This document shows, in pieces, positions 1,746 to 56,755 of a DNA stretch of 64,000 bases. The translations under genes and the position numbers were made by a program. Location of the stretch: the NCBI RefSeq assembly GCF_000003815.2, contig NC_049981.1, positions 25,563,796 through 25,627,795 on the forward strand. Direction: 5' to 3'. Within the stretch, counting starts at the first letter, position 1. Each line of letters starts with the position of its first letter. The notes under the pieces are model-generated. The model ran no database searches and was not told the DNA's origin. It saw nothing but the letters and a program-made list of their open reading frames with translations. The DNA is from Branchiostoma floridae. Taxonomy: Eukaryota; Chordata; Leptocardii; Amphioxiformes; Branchiostomatidae.

Positions 1746-4700
1746 ATGTTTATCAGATTTGGACAGTGCATCAGGGTACAAATCCCGCCTGTTGGGACAT
1801 GCTTTTTGCTGCTCATCCTGGCAAGCTGGGCTTCTACCCAGGACCCACGCAGTTCTGTGAAACGTGACACTTTTGCCACCAAGACGAAATCCGACGCTGC
1901 CTCTCCCTGGCTGGAGAGGACAGAAAGAGACCTGATTCTGACGGAAACATGCCCGCACCTCCGGCAATGCAAACCTGTTCATGTCAGCATGCTGATAAGG
2001 CATGGGACGCGATATCCCAAAAAGAACGGACATCAGCAAAATTGACTACGTTGTCTCATCGATTCGCCACTACGGGGTCGAAGGAAACGGACCTCGTGAA
2101 CGTGATGAGACGGTGGCAGAACTCATTTGAGTGGCAAGATGCAATGATGCTCGCGGAAACAGGCAAATGGGAAATGGAGGAACTCGCGAGTCGCATTGTC
2201 CAACGTTTTCCTGAGGTATTCCATGGTGCAAAACCCGAGAGCTTAAGATTTGTAAGCAGTACAAAGAACAGGACAGTAGACAGTACCTCTGCATTTGTAA
2301 GAGGACTTTGGAATGGGTTGAAGGAAATGAAAGCAGCCGACAGTATAAAGGACCCTCGTAAATTGCAGACCAATGCAGGTCCGCATACAGACACACTCTT
2401 ACTCTTTCTTGAGAACTGCAAGAGGTGGACTGAAGAAGTTGAGCGAAACACAGAGGCCTTACAAGAAGTGTCAAAGTTCTTGGATGGCCCCGAGGTTCGG
2501 AGTGTGTTGAAGAACATTACCTCACAGCTAGGACCTTCAGTGCTGCTGGATTTCTCAGTAGGTAAGTTTCAATTAGATTAATAGTTTGCCTGTACAAGAA
2601 ATGTGAAGTGGGTTTGATGAAATGTATGAAGTGGGTTTAACTTTGTTGCAACACAAAAGAGAAGTCGGTTAGGTCTACTTTAGGTTAACTGAGTACCCAT
2701 GCCTATAGACTGATTATGACTGTCCATCACACTGCTGCTGAACCAATGAGACAATTGCAATTAGCTGTTTGACCAATAAGAGAGTGGCTGCACATTCGGA
2801 AAATATTTTCATTTTTGTGTTGTCATTTTGCATAAATTCTTTGTTTTGATGGACGTGGGTGGGGTAATAAGATCAGTCTATTCGTATTACTCAGTTGTCC
2901 TTTTTGGTTGTTACTGCATATTTTTCTGATATGGACCACATTGAATTTGCAGTTACTTTTCCCTTGTGTTCTTGCTACTGTCTCAACCATAAACTCAAAG
3001 ACACTACAAATTTTGAAGTATAATGAAATTTCAGGCAAAATATCACTAAATGATAAATCTTTTCCCAAGGGGAATCTAATTTGCCAAATCTTGTTTTAGG
3101 GCACACACAGTACATGTATTGTTACTTCTATTGGGCCAAATATATGCCAGGTCTCATCTACCATTTAGAACAAGGATTATGGTGCAGTATTCAGCACCAA
3201 GGACATGCATGACATGCCTTATTAAGGTTCCGGTTCGGAGTTTCTTTTACGATTCGAGGCCGATATGACTGTCTCTGAAAAAAGCACTAGCGCTTCTCAA
3301 AACATCGTTTTTCGGACAATTCGATGTTTCCGATAGAAAAGGGTGCCTTGTCGCTGACCGTCAGACTCATTTGACATTTTCTGTAGAAATGTTATTTTTG
3401 GTAAAAACCATCATTAAAATACAATTTTCACCAAGAAATTGCTAATTTGGAGGCTTTTTTTACAGGCCGCTACACGGAAAAAATGAATTTTCCTGGGATA
3501 ATGACTAATATGGCAATGGAGGTCAAGAGTTCTTCTGTATACTGAGCAAAAAGGAAGAAAAGTTATCCGATACGTTTTCCGCGAGCTCCGATGGCGCTAA
3601 AACACCCAAAACGCGCATAGAACGCACCATCTGGGTAATCAGGCGACGAAACGCTTTACCGCTATCGCGCGCACTAATACCAGGAAGTGTTCGCCGCACG
3701 ATCAAATCTCCGACACCATAAAACGCTACGAACAACAAGCATTTGGGGATGTATAAAAGATTATACATTGCTAAAGCGACAGCCGGAAAATCTAGAGCCA
3801 AAACTATAGAGACAACCTCTAATTTGCGTCTTATTCTTAGGGACTATTTAGATATCTGGACAATTGAAATTCCGAACCGGAACCTTAACTGGGTGCTATT
3901 TCATACAGTGGAATGATTGGTCTCTTTTGTGTTGGTTCATCTAGCACCAGAATTAGAAGTCATAATTTATTGATGGTCACAGTCTGTTAATGTCATTCCA
4001 AATTTAGATCTAGCTCAAGATACATGGAATGTTTGTGTCTACCTTTAGAGTTTATAGCAGGATCTATGGCGACCACAATACTGTAAATCTTTAATTATTG
4101 GCAGTGACTTTATTTTCGTGGTGCCTTGCTACCTTGTATATAATCATGACATTGACACGCATGTACAGCGAATCTGTCTTTTTGTGCTACAGTGTTATTT
4201 CCACTGCAAACTTGATACATGGCAAACCCCCCCCCCACTGAGAAACAAAGGAATGTACAGTAATTACTTAGTATGTAATAGAGTGAGTCAATAGGTCATG
4301 TTCACTGTACTTACTTGAGAAGGTTGTGATGTGTGTAGCTGATTCAGCACCAAGGACAGTCCTGACAACCATCATCATTCAGTGCTACTCATACTACCTT
4401 TTTTAGGTCCTTGAAAGAGGTCAGTGACCTCCTACAGGTGTATTGCTTCTGTCTGAGTATGTTTGTGTGTTTTCAACTATAAGTTAAGGTCTTTTTGATG
4501 GATTTCTTTGAAACATGGCATGCTGGTAGCTACTACCAGTACTAGGTTACTTTGTGGTTCTGTATGGCAGTTTTGGGCATCTTAACAGTATTTTGAGGCA
4601 ATGCAAAATTCCAACTGATACCCCCATCTTGAAATTCGTGTGGTACACTTCATTTAAATCATCTGTTGGTTGCTTGATGGTAGCCAGTACAATACAAGCG

Positions 4701-8419: not shown

Positions 8420-11400
8420 TTAAACCATACGCGTCGATATGCTTATCTCACAGCCGCCTTCAATGACGTCACACACTAGCATCAACGTCAAGTTCCTATC
8501 CTCCTCGCCAAAGGCTTTCTTGAAGCGCGGTAAGATGTCCGGAGACAAGAAGTGGAGAACTATTTTAAGATCTTTGATCTCCTTCTGGAGCTTGGAGCCG
8601 TCTGGGAAGAACTTGGCTGCTAGGATTTTGCGAAGATTGCCGGTCTCTGTGTATAGCGTCTCGACCTGAGAAATGTCAAATATACTTCAATATCATTCTA
8701 ATTACAGGCTTGAACATGCTACAAATTTAAAATAATTGGATTTTCTTGAAAACCTTTAGATATAAGATAATTTTAAGTATTACAAGATATTCCACTTAAA
8801 AGGGGAATATCTTGTAGCCACAAAACTATCTTGTCACTACCACTATATAGTATCTGTGGGAACAATTGGATGCCCAGGCCAGCTACTTTGCAATAGTTAT
8901 CATCATACTTTCATCATTCTATTGCAATATCTTTTCAGTAAAAAAAAGAAAGTTGACTCACTCGATAGTCCTCGAAAGTTTCGGAAAAAGTTGTCACCAA
9001 ATGTGCCGGATCAGAGACAGAGGCCCGAGCATCGTACAGCTTCAGAGACTGCTCACTCTCCACACCTCTCAGGTTCCAGTGATCTGGAAGGACAAAAACA
9101 TTCTTGCACATGGTCATCAGGTTGGTAGATCACTACTACACTGGTTAACAAAGGTAATACAGATGCATTCGTAATAGAGTAATAGAATGATAACATAGTT
9201 AACAGAGTAATACAGATTAACTAAGATAATAATAGAGTAATAGAATGATAACATAGTTAACAGAGTAATACAGATTAACTAAGATAACAGATTAACTAAG
9301 TTAACAGAGTAATACAGATGCATTCGTTGGATAAAGGTTGAGAAAGAAATATGGATGACTAATATATGAACCAGGATGAGGGGGATAAAAACGCAGTGTC
9401 ATGTCTGGGACCGCATCCTCCACACTGCAGCAGCAACACCAAGCGGCAGTGCGAAGTAGAACGTACCAGTCAGTACTGTCCCTATGAAGCTGACACTCGG
9501 TGGATAACTGTCGGGTATCAACTCCGGTTGGATACAAAGAACTTTGTTAACCGGAAGAGATGCACCGTCATTGGACGGCCTGGGTCAAGAATTAAAGAGG
9601 CTTTGAAGGATCTCGCATAGGCGAAGGTGACGGAGAAGTCAGGAAAGCTTCCATGGAGATGCCGTTGACTGTCGGCAGACATTTGAGTGTCGGAACAATT
9701 AAATACTAGTAATTCACCTCTCAACGCTCAATGATCTTCAAGTTCTTCCGATATTCTGTCAATGATCTTTCAGAAGTAAGCAAGAGGACCTAACGCGCGG
9801 GCATAACAACATTTCATAAACGCTAATGACGCACCTTTCAAACTCCCGGCCGGCTGAATTTGTATCTCAATAGGATAATGGTCGCTGATGTCTTCCACCT
9901 AAACATACATAAGAATAACCGAATTATTCTGGATCCATTTCACAAGAACGCAAACTTATAGTTCCGAACTATGATAAGTATCAATGTCAAATAGTGGCAA
10001 GATTGTGCTGTTATTCTTAGTGGTGTTAAAACGTGATCAATTGTCTAGATCTACATAAAATAGAAAAATTACATTTACTTACACCCCTTTCCACTAGAGG
10101 CTACGGCCTCTGAGTGACAAAAAATGACAGATAACGAATGTAGATATAGATAATGAAATAGGACAATCTTTTTTCGTCTTGTGTTTTTTTGTGTCTTTTG
10201 AATCTTTCACATCATGCAACATCGTCCAATGAAATCAAGGGACAAGCAAATACAATGCATTCTGGTCGGTCAGCAGTTGGTTGCCGATCACCTTCTATAG
10301 CAGAAAGGGAGTCTGGAGTAGGGAAAGGAATTCCTCACCAGGTCTCTGTCTAGGTCGTATGCCGTGTCGTATTCAAAGATTGTGCCGCTGTCCGGTATAA
10401 AGGCCCTTTTCAAATCGTGCCCGGCCAACACGAACCTTATCAGGGGTAGAAGGAAACATAGAGGACTTTCAATATTCGTCCAACGCACTTTGTGGAGATT
10501 GTGTCGATTCCTTTTCATCATAGAGATGATCTTGATAAGAAATTAAAACTAGGCAATCGGGGATAACAGACGTCACTCCTCAGAGGTTTGGCGCACTCTG
10601 GTAGAACATGCACTGTGTATGTAGAAACAATGAGACAGAGAGAAAAACAGAGTCACATTCACTCAGCCTAGCCGCAAGAAATCCTTCAGAAATTTGGGTC
10701 GGAAGTAAAAAGGAACACCTTTGTTGAGCTTGTCTTAAGAATGAGCTGTACCTGTCGTAGGCACAGCCTAATTTGGCAAGAGTTGTGTCTACGTCATCCC
10801 CTATTGGCCAATGGAATTTCGAGTTGGCACGCAGGCGCGATGATTTCAGTTGTTTCCCTGTCACATAGTTGCACCCGGCTCTGAAATTGCCTGCGAACAA
10901 CACGTCCTACAGAACACAGTGACCTGCACATCAATATACGCATTACATACGCATTCAATACCTAACATAGTATAGCAAAAACACCAGGCCTGCCGCATAA
11001 GATTTGAAAAAAAAAGAAAAAAAAAAACACATTCCTGATAATGAGCGAACAAAACACGAAATGAAATGTTTGAATCCAGAAATTATTACGTCAGTATTGC
11101 ATAGGTCATCATTGCAACCATCTACTTCTACCACTGTTAGCTAACGTTGATTATATCTATGCTGTGTCGCACTGTCGTCGTTGCCCACCTTAACACGCCA
11201 CTTTTCGTACACGTCACTATACACGTTCACCAGGTGGTCTATTTCCTGTGCGGTGTCAGTGGCTGAGGCGAACACTGCTACCAAGGCAACGTCATCTAGC
11301 GCTGGAAGAACAAGGCTATCAGTGATGACAAACGTCACCCCACCAAGCAATCAAAGCTTATGACATAATCACCGATATTTTTTACGGTTCGAAAGACGGA

Positions 11401-14258: not shown

Positions 14259-17200
14259 TTATATGAAGTGTTCGACGTTCAGTCGATAGTTTGGGGCCAT
14301 CTTGCTGTGGAGCGCCACTTCAGACGGTTGCTGCAGGTGTGCGGTCACGTGATTCTGCAGCATCTGGATATCGTCTGCACTGAGCAGACGCAGTCTGGTC
14401 GGGTCCGTCTTCACCCTGTCCATCATCCACTGAACAACCAACGTCTTCAACCGTCTCCGTCCCGCTTCGGCGATCCTCGTCACCGTTTCGGCTAAAAGCG
14501 TCGGCTCCACGACCAACTTGGTCAACTTGGTGCATTTTCTGACGATGTCGACGAGGCTATCTTGACAGAACAACCCGCATATTCCGAGTAAGAAGAACGA
14601 CTCAAGCGTCGAACAGTATAAGTCGGGTATCATTGTCATAACAGCCTCGATCTGTAGGCTCGGAAAAACGCTAGGTGTACAAAATCCCAGGTCAGTCACC
14701 GGCAGGTCAGGCCGCAGGAATGGACCAAACTCTTCAGGGGTCATGTGGACATCCAGGAAGAATAGCCCGAGTCGTAACTTCGGTAATCGTCGGAACACGC
14801 CGTCCCAAGTCGGCAGCAGGAAAGGGTTGTATCGTTCCTGCCGAGTCACGATCACGAGCTTCTTCAAATGTGGGAGTCCTCCTTTACTCACTACCTACAA
14901 GAATATAGAAATAGAGTATAGTCCCAGTCACTGTTCTAATTCTAAGGACACAACCACCCGTACGTGCAAATACGTGCTGTCTACGAGCCAAAACGTGTGC
15001 AATCTTTTGGGATCCGTTAGTGGTAAGTACCGTCTCCGTACGAACTCGTAGGGAATCCGACGGATGTTGTGGCATGCAGACACGCCGCAGAACTTTACGT
15101 GCAGGCAAAACTTTGTGTGCTATTGGGCTGCGGATTCGCCCCCCATACGTGCCAGTACGGGCGACGCACCTGCCCTGTACAGCCTGAACGTTTTCAGAAA
15201 TACGCGACGAACGCGGCCTCCCAAAAAAAAACGTACGGAAAAATTGCACGTACGGTGGGTTGTACCCTTAGCTTAGAATATTGCGAGCAGGCAGTTGTAA
15301 TCATATAAATGGAATCAAACTTTCTGAAGTACCTGTAAAAACTGTTCACTGATGTATGTGCTCTGTAACTTCAGTATTTGTATCTGTAGAGGAGAGTCCG
15401 GGAACAGCGTGTCTGGTCTAGACCTTCCGGGCAGGCCTCCTGTGCTAGCCGTTGGGTCGTAATCTTTGGTGTAGTTGAGAGCAAAATGTCGGAGATGTCG
15501 CACGTTGTGTAGGGAAGAGCGGAACAGAGCACACTGCTCTTGTGGGAGGCCATTCACCACCAAGCGCTGGAGGCCCGGGGAACAGGCAAGGACCTTGAAA
15601 ACAAGAAGCGACCTCAACAGAATGTACTCTGTCTGTCAACCTGCATGGGGCTATATTAACAACATAGACTGCAGATAGCGTATGACTGTGATATATCTAA
15701 ATGAAAGAAGTAGTAACACATTTCACGTCTTACTGACCATGTATTATGGTGGGGTAAAGGGGTTACATGTTTCTTTTGTTTTGATCCTCTACTGTAGGAT
15801 GCGCTACTATAGTAGGAACAGCTCCTGAGGAAACAGATGAAAGCCTATTCCAAATGGGACTGACCTCGCGAAGAAATTCCCTCATGGGGAATGTGATGGA
15901 GCGACACCGACGGCTGCCACAAACCGGGTCCTTGTATAACGTGTGTTCAAAGGCGTGCAACTGAGAAAAAGAAAATAATGAAAGAAAAGATCACATGTAC
16001 ATCGTTACCTAATGAAACTATTCATGAAATTTGAAGCAAAGTTGAACTGCAATATTAAAAAGTGACAGAAGTTGGGCTTACCAAATTGTGTTGTAAACTA
16101 CACAAGTGTCATAACAACTTTGCGCCAGAATTATATCTGCTAACACAGATGGAATCTCAAGCTAAAGGACAAATATATATTACAGGTATTGTGATCATAG
16201 GCATAAGAATAACTGTATTAAGTATGTTTAGTCTTAACATATATAAACGTGTATACAAACAAACAACTGTTTTCAGATGTGCAACATTTTATTTTACAAC
16301 CATACGAATCGTTTCCATTCATTTAAACGCTGCATGTCAGTATTTCACTCTCACCCCAATGCATGTACTGACCTCCAAGCTGCTGAGGTGTCCCGCATGC
16401 GCAGCTGCCAGCACTAGAATGCTCACCTCCACCCACGCGATTTTACGCGTGACGTGACGAGACTTGGCGTACGGGCACTCTTCTCGGGGAAGGAAGAGCT
16501 GCGGGTAGAAAATACAAAAAGACATTATGTGGATGATGTATGGTTCCTCTAGCGAGCGTGGTCCAGGGGTGATGAGCTCTGAATACGGACCTCACTGCAT
16601 CTTCTTATCATAATGGCTTGCAATGCGTATTACGTACATGGAGTTGTTACCATGTAGAACGTTGTAGAAATGTTGCCAAAGTCACCATAGATTAATTTTC
16701 TTCATGCTGACCTTGACGTCCCTGATACAGTGCCCGAACGCCTTCAAAACTTTGGTGGTCTCCTCTGTCGGTTTGTAGACAGAATGGTCGGCGCTCAGAC
16801 TGAAGTCAACTGTAACGGTTCTCCCTGTCCACGCGTCGGGCAGATGGGCACATCTGAGCATAAGGGATGATGCCTTGATGGACAAGTTCAATACAAATTT
16901 TTCCATACAAATGTGTGTAGATGGTGTTTAACACCGGGTACAGGTGTATTTGTAAGTGCGTGGATGGTGTTCAGCACCAGGGACAGGTCTATGTGACTGC
17001 GGGTGGATGGTTTTCAGCACCAGGGACAGGTCTGCCTGACTGTGTGTAGATGGTGTTCAGCACCAGGGATAGGTCTGCTTGACTGTGTGTGGATGGTGTT
17101 CAGCACCAGAGACAGGTCTGCCTAACTGTGTGTAGATGGTGTTCAGCACCAGGGACAGGTCTGCTTGACTGTGTGTAGATGGTGTTCAGCACCAGGGACA

Positions 17201-17954
17201 GGTCTGCTTGACTATGCGTGGATGGTGTTCAGCACCAGGGACAGGTCTGCTTGACTGTGTGTAGATGGTGTTAGTGTCACTGTTACCGGGGATATGTATT
17301 TTACCTACGTGTGGATTGTGTTCAGCACCAAGGACAGATGCGTTCACCTGCGTGTATGCTGGTCACTTGTTTAGTATCTTCTTCTTCTTTAGTATCTAAA
17401 TTTATGTGACGGGTCATTGTATTTCACCTGCCATTCTATCGTCTTATCCAGTGCAACAAGAAAAAAATGCCAGAAAATTCACCTGGCTAAACAATAGAAG
17501 TTAGTTCCTACCTGTGCCATTGACTGCAGACACACGCACAGGACAACAAATCGGCCAAGGCTAAATACTTGAAAACACGTGACAACCCGTCATCAGAAAT
17601 CCAGCAGACATCCAGACAGTGATCGCTGGATTTGGCGGGTTTCTCTGAGATGCAATATGTTGGCCTCACCGACATACAGGGTGTCGTTGGGTCTCTTGTA
17701 GCAGCTCTATTGCCATTTTTCTTTGAACGTGAATCTTCTGAAGATAGTATGATCTTCTTCTGGGTTTCGGCAACATTCCCAACTTTATCTGAGTTTTCAA
17801 TACAATCATTGGTGGCTACGCGTGGAAAACAACAAACTTTGGAGCACATTTTGCTCAGAACAACGTTTACCGACAGTACTCGTAACAGCCACGTAAACAC
17901 CAAGAAGAAAGTACGTTTCTGTTTACGAACAGCTTCTCGGTTGTTTTGTTCCAT
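14259..17954 (-). CDS. F-box protein with leucine-rich C-terminal half, FBXO39-like
   Basis: Six exons (minus): 17512-17954, 16712-16853, 16373-16498, 15865-15960, 15333-15593, 14259-14894; 567 codons in one frame. A long N-terminal stretch of low complexity precedes an F-box at about residues 115-160 (ISDDGLSRVFKYLALADLL, then CVCSQWHR across the first splice). The rest carries irregular leucine-rich segments (LQRLVVNGL, LRHFALNY, LPHLKKLVIV, LTKLVVEP), and its layout follows vertebrate FBXO39. F-box proteins dock substrates on the SKP1-CUL1 ubiquitin ligase; the leucine-rich part would select the substrate. The start codon is the first in frame at 17954; a later Met is possible. Intron 1 and the upstream flank hold RE1-like arrays. 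Confidence 0.8.
14942..15271. mobile_element. Small inverted-repeat element in the last F-box intron
   Basis: About 330 bp bounded by 28-bp inverted repeats (14942-14969 and 15244-15271) that match at 24 of 28 positions and contain CCGTACGTGCAA. The interior is rich in ACGT and CGTACG. No open frame or clear target duplication; probably a MITE. Confidence 0.6.
16927..17341 (+). repeat. Array of RE1/NRSE-like motifs, 43-bp period, in F-box intron 1
   Basis: Motif starts at 16927 (degenerate), 16970, 17013, 17056, 17099, 17142, 17185 and 17228 are exactly 43 bp apart. The usual unit core is TTCAGCACCAGGGACAGGTC, matching both RE1 half-sites with a 2-base spacer. After an irregular segment at 17271-17320 a further copy starts at 17321 (TTCAGCACCAAGGACAG). 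Linkers carry TGTGTGTAGATGGTG. The array is antisense to the F-box gene. Confidence 0.9.
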
Positions 17955-18281
17955 CGAACGCTTTGTATCGTCATGGTACCATCTGTCTGTTACGTTTGAT
18001 ACACGGCTCGGAAGTGGCAGTGTCTTAGTGTTATGTTGGTCGAATTTGTTCTTGTTCCCATACTATAGGAGAGCAAGAAGTGAGAAAGGTGCTTTATTGG
18101 ACGATAACTTCGTCTTTAAAAATGGACAAGAACAAGTTGTTTCTACACAGAAAGCCTATGTTTGTTGTTTGTTTTGTTTTGTCTTGTACCTGTTAAGCTT
18201 TTGTGTATGCTATTGTTCCAGAACGAGGGCCAAACCAACAGCAAGAACATATCTCTTTACTTTTGCTATCTGTAGAATGTG

Positions 18282-18590
18282 TTCAGCACCAAGGACAGAT
18301 GATACAGATGGTGTTTTGCGCCTGTGATAGATCTATTTTATGTTCATGGATGGTGTTCAGCACCTGCGACAGATCTATTTGATGTACATGGACGGTGTTT
18401 AGCACCAGGAAAACGCTTGTTTGCATGTGTATAGATAGTGCTCAGCACTAAGAACAGGTCTGTGTCCTAGTATGTGGATAGTGTTCAGCACCAAGGACAG
18501 GTCTGTTTGTCTCTGTGTGGACAGTTTCAGCATCAGGGACTGGGATATTTACTTGCCTTTGCGTGGATAGAGTTCAGCACTAAGGGAATG
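18282..18590 (+). repeat. Second RE1/NRSE-like array, upstream of the F-box gene
   Basis: Units start near 18282, 18314, 18356, 18398, 18441, 18484, 18526 and 18573, mostly 42-43 bp apart. Those at 18282 and 18484 are perfect cores (TTCAGCACCAAGGACAG); the others have one to several changes. It lies 330-640 bases upstream of the F-box start codon and is older or less homogenised than the intron 1 array. Confidence 0.85.
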
Positions 18591-51676: not shown

Positions 51677-54600
51677 TCAGGCGATGAACGTCTTCTGGAC
51701 GCGCTGGATGCGGGCCCGGCACATGGGGCACCTCCCTCCGCGCGCGCGCAGCATCTGCACGCAGTTCTCACAGCAGCACATGTGTCCGCACGGGATGAGC
51801 ACCATGCACGCGCTCTCGTCCATGCAGATCTTACACGTGCGCTCCTCAAGCAGCTGCTGCAGCTGCCGCTGGAGGCTGCTGACGTCAGAGGGGGCCGGGT
51901 TCTCCTCAACACCTGTGGTACACGAGTGTGCAGGCGCAATGTATTATAATCATTAGAAATAGTTTCGTCTGTTCTATTAAAACCGAGTGGCCAGGTACAT
52001 TGCAGAAGTTTGACTTTTACGGACACATGAACTAGAGACTCCGGTATCAAATTTGTGAACTTAGAACAAGCAATGGAGTCAAATATGTACTAGCCTGGTC
52101 CCGACCTCCAGGTCCAAACACATACCACAATGTATTATGTATAATATAGCAATTAGAGAAAAAAAGATCTAATACAAACGTTATAATAGCCTGATATCCA
52201 TCCAATTCTAGCAATTGTATATATACTACGACAATATCGTGACACAAACATGTAGCTAGGCAATAAGATGAATCAGGGACTTTGTTAGGCGGATCGCTCA
52301 GTTAGTCAACAATGGTTGCCAGGGTACTAGGATATGTTGGCAACTTTTCTATCGACGTATTGCTTACCTTGTGCGGCAAGTTGTGCCTCACTTGGGTCCG
52401 GTGGGGCCTGTGCTCCGGACACAGGTGGACTCTCCTGTGTGGTTTGAGTCTTTGCCTCAGCCGCGTTCTTCTTGTCCTCATCCTCGGAGCCATTCTGACC
52501 CTCCCCGTGAGCTAGGAGAGCCTCTACAATGTCTGTCATCTTCGCGAACGGTCTCCCGTGCCTCCTCAGTTGCTTATGGACGATGTTTTCCACCTGTTGA
52601 CGCTCGAAGCCCATCTCGAGAGCGCTCTGGATCAGACGTGAGTCCATGGCTTCCTGAAACATGGCGTGGTACGGTGTCTCCGTCTGTGGGTTCTGTACGC
52701 CGGCCTGTTGAGACCCAATGGTGACTGCGCCACTGGACACGAAGGCTTGGTTGAACGTCTCTTCCTCCTGACGAACCTAACACATTGAGGACCAAACAAG
52801 CAAGCTCTGGATGACGTTTTTTAAACATAATATACATTGTAATGTTCAACAATTCCATGTTCACTATAAATAATGTAATGGAGCTATATCACATTCCCCG
52901 TGCGCAGGTCCAAAGATCGAGACGATGAAATCACAGAGACCTGAAAGTGTATCAAAGCGACTCTCTATTTTGATTGAAATGGCATCGTCAACGTGACAAC
53001 TATAGCCATTTTGATTTTATCCCATGTATCTATCGTCTATTGGATCTTTCTTTTGCTAGTGTGAAGGCACTAGACTAAGCTTCTTTTCGTGAACTAACCC
53101 TGTCAAATAGAACACACCTGTCCCAGCACTGGATGGCGCCGTTTGACTTCTTGGATAAAGCTGAGGGTTTTCTGGCGCAGAACAAAGTCACACTCTTCCC
53201 CGTACCAGCGCGCATGCTCCGTCCATGGGTCATCCCCCGCCTGCCAGTCCTTCAGGCCGCCATCGCACCAAAAACACCTCACCTGGTCATCCATATCTGG
53301 AGAGGGAGCCAGGGAGAAACGTTACGGTTCTTTCTATCTGCTGAACACCATATGAATCCACGCACATCTGTCCTTGGTGCTGAACGCAACCCGCCCACAA
53401 ACGCACTTGGTAATTGGTACTGAACACCTTCCACTCTTAGATCCCAACAAACTCCACAAACACACAAACATACCTGTCCTTGGTGCTGAACACCACACAA
53501 GTATACCTGTCCTTGGTGCTGAACAACATCCACAAAGATATACGCAGTGAAAACAAACACACACAAACGCTGAACAAGGTTACCGTATAATTTTCAAATA
53601 CAACAGGGACCAGTATTGAATTTAAAAAAAAACTGGATAAACTATATATCAAAAGCAACATATTATATAAGCTGAAGAAGTAACAATTTCCACTACTTAC
53701 ATGTGTAATAGAACCCAGCCTGTGCCAGTTTCCGCGGTGCAATAGGACTGTACAGCGGCCATCTCAAGAACGTGGAGACTCGCAGTTCTTCGGACGACAG
53801 ATCGGGGCGTTTTGGGCCCTTTTTATTCTCTGTTTGAGGTCGTTTTTCTGTCTCATGTGAGTAGCGACTCTGCTGTTGACACTGTGAGCTCAATGTTGCT
53901 GACTGAGGTAAACTAGATTGTCGAATAAAGGGCGATAACTTTGCAGTGCCGTTCGTATCCTCATGCGACGTAGTAGGCTGTCTGGTAGATTCTAGCGGGA
54001 CGTTTGCGGTTGCGTACCCCCGAATGAAAGGACAGTGGGAGTAATGTCGTTCGTGTTCGACTTTGGGATCATCTCCTTGCTCCCACTGGTGTAGAACCCC
54101 GCCACAAAACGCACACTCTACTTTATCTCGTACACCAAGATAGAAGAAGCCCAGTTTTGCCAACTGTTCTGGAGATACGGGCGTGTCCATCGGCCATCCG
54201 TACCCGTAGTACGTGTGTAAGCGGTGGAGTTCGGTATTCAGGTCTTTTGGGCACAAGCTGCTGCACGATCGTACGTCGTTCACAACAGTTTTCTTTGAAT
54301 TCGAAGCACCTGCATCTGTCGAATCGATCTTACTTTCATATTTAAGACTCGACAGCGGTCTTTGTGTCTTGCATTCTCCATTGAAACGATGGCCACTTCC
54401 TCCATCTGGAACATCTAACGCTTTCGAGTTTGAACATTGTGGATATAGTCGGTTGTGTTTTCCTATTGGCTCGTTGTGATCTGTCCAACTTTCTATATCT
54501 ATCGCCCCATTACACCGGTAACAGACAAGTTTGTTTCCAGTCCCTGGATAGTATAGCCCAGCATTGGCTAGTTTACGGACATTCATTGACAATAGCAAAT

Positions 54601-54787
54601 TATTTAAAAGAGCAAAAGATGCCATCCTGTTAATGGCCACAGAGAGGCAAATTTCCGACTGAGGAAGGTTTTCTTGTTGACCGTTTTCCCTTGCTGTTGG
54701 CAGTGTTGCCTCCGCTCGTCCGAGTCTTGCCATGTCTCTCACCAAATCAGGTTCGTCCTGTCCTTTGGTGCCGTATCCTTGGGCCAT
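51677..54787 (-). CDS. Inhibitor of apoptosis protein, three BIR domains, UBA and RING (copy 1)
   Basis: Four exons (minus): 53701-54787, 53118-53296, 52368-52776, 51677-51912; 636 codons, XIAP-like layout. BIR1 (CYRCNGAIDIESW to H..C) is divergent: it lacks the usual GGL-W form. BIR2 is canonical (FYLGVRDKVECAFCGGVLHQW). BIR3 is split by intron 1 after GFYYT and continues VRCFWCDGGLKDW, DDPWTEHARWY, the groove that binds Smac-type N-termini in known IAPs. Exon 3 carries a UBA domain (ALEMGFERQQV to IVEALLA). The last exon is a C-terminal RING: CKICMDESACMVLIPCGHMC, then CPMCRARI. The RING would act as a ubiquitin ligase, and the BIRs would restrain caspases or join immune signalling. No CARD is present. 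The partner paralogue is at 60362. Confidence 0.9.
53368..53523 (-). repeat. Third group of RE1/NRSE-like motifs, in IAP copy 1 intron 1
   Basis: On the minus strand TTCAGCACCAAGGACAG occurs at 53368-53384, 53474-53490 and 53507-53523, all perfect cores, with a degenerate copy at about 53406-53424. Here the motif lies in the sense direction of the host gene. Spacings are irregular (33 to 106 bp). Confidence 0.85.
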
Positions 54788-56755
54788 GTTTGCTTTTAAT
54801 TGTGAATATTTCTCCCTTTTTCTTTTTGTTTGCTTTGAATATCACTTAGGATCTCTGTTTTAATTGGATAGAATCCGCTGTCTTCTCGATCGCCTTGCAT
54901 GTGTCTTTCGCTGCAAAGGTTTTACAAAATATACATTGGTACACTGTCATGTCAAGCACCCCAGTCAACACTTCTTTGAAACTGCTTCTTTTACATGGTA
55001 ACATGCAACTTGACGTATTCAAAGCTGGTAAAGCTAAAAGATCTCTAAAACTCGGCTGGATTTTAAATCTGTATCTACCTTTATACTGCAGCTACATGCA
55101 TGTACTTCCTCAGGTCGAAGAAAACAATCCATTTCATCGATTTTGATCACCTTTTACACACACCCAAACTGTACAAACACATTCGTGCATACATAGGTGT
55201 ACTGACTTGAGTGTAACAGCTATTTGTTTAATAAGCTATAAGTAATTATTTTGTAAGTCTAGGCGACCGCTAGCCGTTGCGACTGACTACATTTAAGAGG
55301 AAGCAGACAACAGTGGCCACGGCTAGGCGGCCGTGAATGTAGCATTGATACGTGGAACACCTGGTTTTGTCAGCTAACCAACACAAAACTTTAAAGTGGG
55401 TATTTGCGTGACATAAAACAAACGGTAGACTAAACAAAGCTAAAGTGCAGGCAACCGGATGCTCCCCTGCCATTTTAGTAACAAGTCAAGTAAAAGTCTG
55501 TTTTTGGGACTAAAATACGCCAGTAGACGTTGCAATATAAACTGAAAGGCACATTGAATGACGCAGCGAAACTAGACGCACAACGTATCTATACATAGGC
55601 TCCAGACTGAGTTTTGAAACACTCGAAACAACAGGTAAATTTCCCAGAAGGCTTAGCGAAGGCCTGTGGATTTTCTGACTGCGTCACACCCAGTCCTAAG
55701 CAAAGGCAAAATCTAGCACAATAAAGGAAACCCTTTGACTTAATATTGCTTCACCTGTGAACTTTGAGCCTTTAGCCCTCAATACATCACAATGGTTAGA
55801 GTCAGCTGACAGACCAGGCAGATGGATGATGTATGTTGACGTTGGCGACATGTAGGCACCTTCCTCTTACTGCTGACCGTGACCATGACGTCACGCACAA
55901 TACAGGTGGAAAGTTTTATGAGGTCATAGTCTAAACATAGACCATGCAACTCTCGCGTGACATCACCGGCCAAAATATAACTTCTGTTAAAATAACGATC
56001 TTATCCTTACGCTCACTTCAAAAGTATAGTTCCTCTTTTCATCAGAAAAGGCCCCCTGCCATTGAATATCAACACGCCTGAGTTCCTGTTTCAGGGATGT
56101 CGAAAAGAGGAACTGTCCAGAGCGAAAGGTTTCGATAGTATTGGGTACTAAAAGAGGAAGTATTGTTCACACTAGAACGCGAAGCCGAAATGCTGAAGAT
56201 ATGCTGAATATGACGGCGTTATCAGAAATGTTAAGCATATGTTCGGTATGTTCTGGTGGTGCTGTGACAAAGCTACGATACATGTTTACCTGGACGAGTC
56301 TATTCAGCCTATGGGTGAGATGAATATTGAATAAATAATGATACTCACTTGGACAGAAGTCTCAACAAATACATCCCATGCTCGCTCGTACCCGACTGAA
56401 GGGGATCAAAATGAGGCTCACGGACTCGACCTTTGGCATTTCAGTCGGTTGTTATTCGTTTTGGAATGACAAAAACCCGTCTCGCGAGAACACGTACACA
56501 ATCTCCACTTGTTATAGGCGCGGCAGTCATTGGAGGGCTTCTTTGGCATGTAGTTTTATACTTTATAGCCCTATGTTGAGAAGGCTAATCTATAAGACTA
56601 CTGCAAAAGAAGCCCTCCAACAGTTACCGTGGCTACGCTAATAGATAAATTGTGAAAGACAGCAATGAAAAACACCCTGAGCACGAAAATATCCAGAACC
56701 AACAGAACTTATTAATATGTCTCAACAATTGTGTTGAAACTTGTATGTCTCTTAA
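54788..56755. other. Upstream region of IAP copy 1
   Basis: No coding exon supported. Presumed promoter of IAP copy 1 lies at 54788-55000. A foldback sequence is at 56530-56620. The remaining sequence is unremarkable. Confidence 0.4.
56530..56620. repeat. Short foldback sequence
   Basis: TTGGAGGGCTTCTTT at 56530-56544 and its exact reverse complement at 56606-56620, with weaker pairing outside the core. Possibly a small MITE of about 130 bp (56513-56645). Confidence 0.5.

Follow-up and report, generated by a model that had tools for sequence, protein, structure and literature searches.

Tandem arrays flank the inferred first coding exon of an F-box gene in the window of Branchiostoma floridae DNA analysed here (64,000 nucleotides of contig NC_049981.1; positions are counted from its first letter), and a first-pass annotation had seen in them a special arrangement of silencers of the RE1/NRSE type, the element read by vertebrate REST/NRSF. 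We find that these arrays are ordinary copies of a dispersed cephalochordate minisatellite that is filed in Rfam as mir-2060. The explanation that we favour, at a probability of roughly 55%, is that the 17-bp core of this minisatellite is an RE1-type bipartite binding site, and that arrays near a given gene may lack function. The array itself is of a known kind (a minisatellite, filed as mir-2060); the noteworthy part is an RE1-type core in thousands of copies, many of them isolated, in an invertebrate chordate. The RE1 interpretation was thus retained in part: the half-site match and the genome-wide behaviour of the core speak for it, while the special arrangement at the gene, the conservation within the window array and the helical phasing did not hold.

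The RE1/NRSE consensus consists of the half-sites TTCAGCACC and GGACAG; as far as we know, REST and RE1 are regarded as belonging largely to vertebrates. A search of titles and abstract beginnings in the open-licence literature returned no report of amphioxus RE1 sites, and in PMC2206037 NRSF appears in the reference list only. According to PMC4777549, about 80% of the 2,000 mammalian NRSEs that have been characterised show a 21-bp motif, 9 + 10 bp with a 2-bp linker, and Drosophila Charlatan has been called the NRSF counterpart in diptera, the charlatan binding element having been compared with RE1. In the literature, Charlatan thus sets the example of an invertebrate system of the RE1 type.

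In the mechanism that we propose, the core would serve as a two-part target for a multi-zinc-finger protein, with a sequence preference similar to that of vertebrate REST for the RE1 core. Tandem duplication around these sites would give rise to the arrays and homogenisation would follow, so that copies near a given gene, the F-box gene included, need no function there. Thousands of exact RE1 cores in an invertebrate chordate would allow asking whether the site or the protein came first, and would bear on the role of the network before vertebrate brains. The finding would likewise suggest that what has been catalogued as a microRNA family is part of a minisatellite, and with the core arrays nature offers a way to test whether tandem repeats are seeded by sites that bind protein.

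Core arrays around an F-box gene

The window was scanned with the consensus core TTCAGCACC-NN-GGACAG, counting mismatches. The core scan, Tandem Repeats Finder (TRF) and Rfam gave the following features.

16912..17272, plus strand: minisatellite of 43-bp units, 8.4 copies, core TTCAGCACCAGGGACAG (TRF, 87% match, and core scan; Rfam mir-2060 at 16909-16998 and 17077-17170)
17321..17337, plus strand: detached exact core with AA spacer, a 93-bp step after the last array unit at 17228 (core scan)
17512..17954, minus strand: inferred first coding exon of the F-box gene, between the two arrays (ATG 17954, GT donor 17511; limits inferred from sequence)
18282..18298, plus strand: exact core with AA spacer at the proximal edge of the upstream array (core scan)
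18307..18589, plus strand: diverged upstream array with steps of 42-47 bp; its cores have 0-4 mismatches, and one unit, near 18314, is very degenerate (TRF, core scan, Rfam mir-2060 at 18419-18512)
53459..53540, minus strand: array of 33-bp period that shares the core, exact at 53474 and 53507 (TRF, core scan, Rfam mir-2060 at 53462-53543)
53368..53384, minus strand: exact core about 90 bp from the 33-bp array (core scan)
4343..4359, plus strand: isolated exact core (core scan)
3190..3206, plus strand: isolated core with 1 mismatch (core scan)

Cores of the first array start at 16927 (3 mismatches), 16970, 17013, 17056, 17099, 17142, 17185 and 17228, every step being exactly 43 bp, and its head-to-tail units (TRF period 43, 8.4 copies) fall within the 10-100 bp of a minisatellite. 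The 43-bp units that had been placed at 16927-17228 and 17321 are present, and the second, more diverged array, claimed at 330-640 bp upstream of the start codon, was found at about 328-636 bp from the ATG at 17954. TRF reported the latter in two rows (18307-18406 and 18434-18540); its cores start at 18282, 18356, 18398, 18441, 18484, 18526 and 18573, with the degenerate unit near 18314 read by eye and the 42-47 bp steps running from 18314 on.

Exact cores numbered 8 in 16927-18590 and 12 in the whole window, which also contained 4 sites with one mismatch, 1 with two and 3 with three. By contrast, sites with two or fewer mismatches were absent from ten simulated windows (first-order Markov), which in total held 11 with three. 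The window thus surpassed randomised sequence when the consensus core was scored. Both RE1 half-sites are indeed matched at a 2-bp distance, as claimed, and the occurrence of the core in the window is not chance.

The proposal that a 43-bp step of about four helical turns would turn all sites to the same face of the DNA was rejected. At 10.5 bp per turn the step makes 4.1 turns, a drift of about 34 degrees per unit, and the array periods obtained by TRF and segment analysis include 33, 35, 37, 40, 41, 42, 43, 44, 51 and 61 bp. With periods of 33-61 bp, no special meaning attaches to a step of 43 bp.

Membership in a dispersed family is indicated by the covariance model of Rfam RF03662 (mir-2060; gathering score 54.5 bits), which matched the window at four places: 17077-17170 (79.3 bits), 18419-18512 (72.4), 16909-16998 (63.0) and 53462-53543 (57.6). 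The model also matched in 8 of 20 other loci scanned (L012, L019, L024, L025, L026, L027, L028 and L065); no match above gathering was obtained in the remaining 12 (L001, L006, L011, L014-L018, L022, L023, L062 and L064).

The core across the genome

A motif search of the host genome, which the first-pass annotation had proposed as a check, returned 7,427 exact copies of the 15-letter bipartite core (3,462 + 3,965) in 513 Mb and 431 contigs, compared with one copy of the reversed pattern as control and about one copy expected by simple arithmetic. Sites with at most one mismatch numbered 16,728 (control 22), and those with exactly one mismatch 9,301, or 1.25 per exact site. The 2-bp spacer of RE1 was preferred: spacers of 3-20 bp summed to 212 sites genome-wide (control 3) versus the 7,427 at spacer 2. 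Among the first 100 of these 212 sites, 81 also had a near-canonical right half or a second core, leaving 19 independent cases; 7 of these cases, a number too small to be decisive, have a spacer of 7-9, which is the range of non-canonical vertebrate RE1.

How the copies are distributed was sampled from the first 100 listed places (contig C1, 0.4-8.7 Mb), a cluster being defined as exact cores within 1 kb. These places formed 44 clusters, 35 with a single core and 9 with multiple copies. Ten kinds of spacer were found at the 35 singles (AA 18, AG 5, AC 4, TT 2, and GC, CA, GA, AT, GT and TG one each). Flanks were tabulated for 32 of the 35, those in L009, L010 and L013 being left out, and columns -14 to +32 outside the core held little information, the largest values being 0.60 bit (-11), 0.43 (-1) and 0.34 (-14). 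No second site within 3 mismatches was present in 617 bp at 23 of the 32 singles. All-against-all blastn of the 32 gave 141 alignments, mostly of 18-36 bp and spanning the core, with off-core matches between L030 and L050 and between L029 and L037. Isolated sites were also encountered in sequence not chosen for the core: 286 kb fetched contained 3 exact sites (window 4343, L017:4164, and L028:56 at the edge of its stretch), 2 with one mismatch and 1 with two.

Extension of the core by the tail CRCC, giving TTCAGCACCNNGGACAGCRCC, was seen 58 times genome-wide (control 0), with 49 sites ending in CACC and 9 in CGCC. These sites lie at 52 places, 47 single-copy and 5 with 2 or 3 copies, and their spacers varied. 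Random tails on all 7,427 cores would lead one to expect 34 such sites (P 1.5e-4), and random tails on some 2,600 singles about 12, base frequencies being assumed.

Judged from its sequence, the core looks like an RE1-type site outside the vertebrates, and genome-wide it appears to behave like a binding site: many copies are isolated, their flanks are mostly unrelated, the spacer is freer than the half-sites and the spacing is strict. It shares with the vertebrate RE1/NRSE both half-sites, the exact 2-bp spacer, the varying spacer letters and thousands of dispersed sites. It differs in that the right-half tail is mostly not CGCC, that 9 of the 44 sampled clusters are multi-copy, and that binding is here a prediction.

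Several observations weigh against a site of this type, the outcome of the protein search described below among them. No core in the window carries a CGCC or CRCC tail, so the vertebrate CGCC extension is missing there, and tail positions 18-21 gave no signal in the 32 singles. Two of 10 canonical, CRCC-tailed sites that were fetched (L086 and L087) have another core within 55 bp, indicating that not all are isolated. Of 20 open reading frames (ORFs) scanned from 9 of these loci (none from L087), in small stretches of 4 kb, 3 gave a Pfam match (P450 twice, GH47 once), and none of these matches is neural. At the start of L087 (1-1277) every one of the six frames stays open for more than 410 aa, which probably reflects masked or N-filled sequence. 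Some of the singles are not solitary or independent either, with 11 near copies in L051 within its stretch and with likeness beyond the core in L045/L046, L031/L032 and L036/L043/L050. Their spacer is biased, A occupying its two positions in 25 and 20 of the 32. Moreover, the figures for singles and tails are projected from the first 100 places on a single contig, with assumed base frequencies.

The same holds for conservation inside arrays, where the core is barely better preserved than the linkers. In a test that favours linkers (units were seeded on neighbouring core matches and extended by linker identity alone), pooled divergence over 20 array segments in 14 loci was 0.061 for the core vs 0.090 for linkers, a modest difference, and the core fared worse than the linkers in 4 of the 20 segments. 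Identity in the window array was 0.881 for the core vs 0.868 for linkers. No sign of purifying selection on the half-sites was seen in this array, and the comparison of half-sites with linkers, by which the first-pass annotation had been prepared to give up RE1, here goes against it. In favour of a binding site, half-site divergence under neutral decay is about 0.083 per position over all sites vs 0.19 (AA and AG taken as original) to 0.28 for the spacer at singles, a contrast that is suggestive and that comes from different subsets (all sites vs singles).

Linkers also tie many arrays together. Flanks were scripted from the window, L001, L006, L009-L028, L062, L064 and L065 and joined by single linkage, with a few chance links to be expected for 351 pairs at p < 0.01; most of these loci had been chosen for TTCAGCACCAGGGACAGG on contig C1, and proportions are not those of a genome-wide sample. 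At p < 0.01, 21 of 27 core clusters joined one linker group (19 at p < 0.002), all three window clusters included. The other six, namely the arrays of L001, L014, L016, L018 and L022 and a two-copy pair in L009, joined nothing, giving 7 linker groups in all.

The common linkers of a large dispersed family, the weak contrast between core and linkers inside arrays and the preference for AA and AG spacers, which singles and clusters share, would all suit a neutral or selfish short repeat, in which the core is the most faithfully copied part of a spreading minisatellite and its similarity to RE1 a historical accident. Such a repeat accounts poorly for the little alignable flank at most of the 32 singles, for a spacer more variable than the half-sites, for five arrays and one pair with unrelated linkers, and for the excess of the vertebrate-type CRCC tail, and we regard it as rather doubtful. 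Another possibility, compatible with an RE1-type binding site, is that the bound core provokes local tandem duplication as a fork barrier or break hotspot. It is in line with the multi-copy state of 9 of the 44 core clusters sampled on C1 (first 8.7 Mb) and with the several unrelated linkers among the 27 clusters. As these loci were chosen for the core, we consider provoked duplication unlikely.

Search for a REST-like protein

The queries were fingers 2-8, fingers 2-4 and the ninth finger (ZF9) of human REST, and exon breaks handicap such a search. Fingers 2-8 and fingers 2-4 retrieved many C2H2 genes, with best scores of 155 and 61 bits, respectively, and no REST ortholog was recognised among the candidates scored (150 of 4,248 and 150 of 5,720). 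Three loci from the fingers 2-8 search (L072, L073 and L077) were read and set aside as generic finger arrays. Many of the C2H2 matches were listed on contigs C10, C16, C158, C200 and C323, as in large gene clusters. The contact residues of a finger are generally read as a guide to the bases that it recognises. When these residues were compared in 245 fingers of L066-L083, those of six loci from the fingers 2-4 search included, a single pair of neighbouring fingers resembled REST fingers 4-5 in 4 of 5 contacts; it lies in L079 (G000:C10:2076970).

The ZF9 query gave a single match at G000:C4:20253612, with 48% identity over 31 residues (E 2.6e-4, 30.3 bits). In the inferred gene model, this finger sits at the extreme C-terminal end of an ORF. 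The exons before it contain six complete fingers and at most three that are split or incomplete, making a multi-exon C2H2 gene (L094/L095, G000:C4:20250635-20253704). The ninth finger of REST recruits CoREST in vertebrates, according to PMC10605157. The seven fingers read from the amphioxus gene have contact residues that differ from those in fingers 4 and 5 of REST. The finger region of this gene scored 118 bits against REST compared with 155 bits for generic amphioxus genes, the two values coming from different searches. One of its fingers passes Pfam PF24540 (30.5 bits, cut-off 27), an unspecific profile with 21 matches. No chain named REST occurred among the best 60 of 213 matches in the PDB. 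The check for a REST-like protein proposed in the first-pass annotation gave no recognised ortholog among the candidates scored and one gene, with a last finger resembling REST ZF9, that may be taken as a lead and not as an ortholog.

Tentatively, an RE1 code older than the vertebrates could be envisaged. It would consist of about 2-3 thousand isolated sites, a number that extrapolates the first 100 listed, and its reader would be a zinc-finger protein with a specificity like that of REST, perhaps encoded by the gene at G000:C4:20.25 Mb; binding would repeatedly seed minisatellites, one of which is filed as a microRNA family.

Silencer and microRNA readings of the window arrays

The F-box ORF (17508-18062, minus strand) matches Pfam F-box-like at 4.1e-6 over profile positions 9-33 of 47. 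The GT donor at 17511 places the first array (16912..17272) in the inferred intron 1, antisense to the gene. Nothing was found that ties the arrays to the F-box gene, and silencing is unsupported. That the arrays flank the inferred exon 1 on both sides within about 1 kb, with the 8 exact cores within 16927-18590, would fit a dedicated silencer array repressing the gene in some tissues through a REST-like protein. By contrast, the same family lies near other ORFs (the array at 53 kb) and in many other places of the genome, the window array displays no selective conservation of the core and the upstream units have decayed, making such a silencer very unlikely.

It is highly improbable that the arrays are a cluster of microRNA genes, as they are filed in Rfam and in the small-RNA literature, given that the 94-nt mir-2060 model covers about two tandem minisatellite units, that the core is present in thousands of copies, that the match strand is antisense to the F-box gene and that window copies fold no better than shuffles. 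In favour of microRNA genes, besides the four matches above the gathering score, are bbe-miR-2060c-3p (gttcagcaccaaggacaggc), a small RNA of Branchiostoma belcheri that is listed in PMC5650284 and contains the core letter for letter, and a copy elsewhere, in L024, that folds better than shuffles (z -2.78). The main text of PMC2728532, on amphioxus microRNAs, lacks the string '2060'.

Of the four window matches, 17077-17170 and 18419-18512 were folded, and neither formed a stable precursor hairpin on the match strand (z 0.26 and 0.14, respectively); the opposite strand of 17077-17170 gave z 0.41. A microRNA hairpin in the window is unsupported by the folding of these two stretches. The likeness to mir-2060 thus consists in the scores of 57.6-79.3 bits and the exact core in bbe-miR-2060c-3p, and the difference in two window stretches with no unusually stable fold and in many core arrays elsewhere that stay below the gathering score. 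As the model seems to cover two minisatellite units, the microRNA status of mir-2060 needs review.

Tandem repeats in amphioxus genes are also known as 'mirages', minisatellites in Adh3 and globin genes that show length instability (PMC3087553). Mirages duplicate exon-intron boundaries with gene-specific units, whereas here one core is common genome-wide.

Elsewhere in the window, an ORF with a BIR domain (IAP) at 53693-54841 adjoins the 33-bp array, and the isolated cores at 3190 and 4343 lie downstream of a histidine-phosphatase (His_Phos_2) ORF at 1868-2581. At 9172-9312 there are two perfect 58-bp copies with an inner periodicity of 17-28 bp, which are unrelated to the core.

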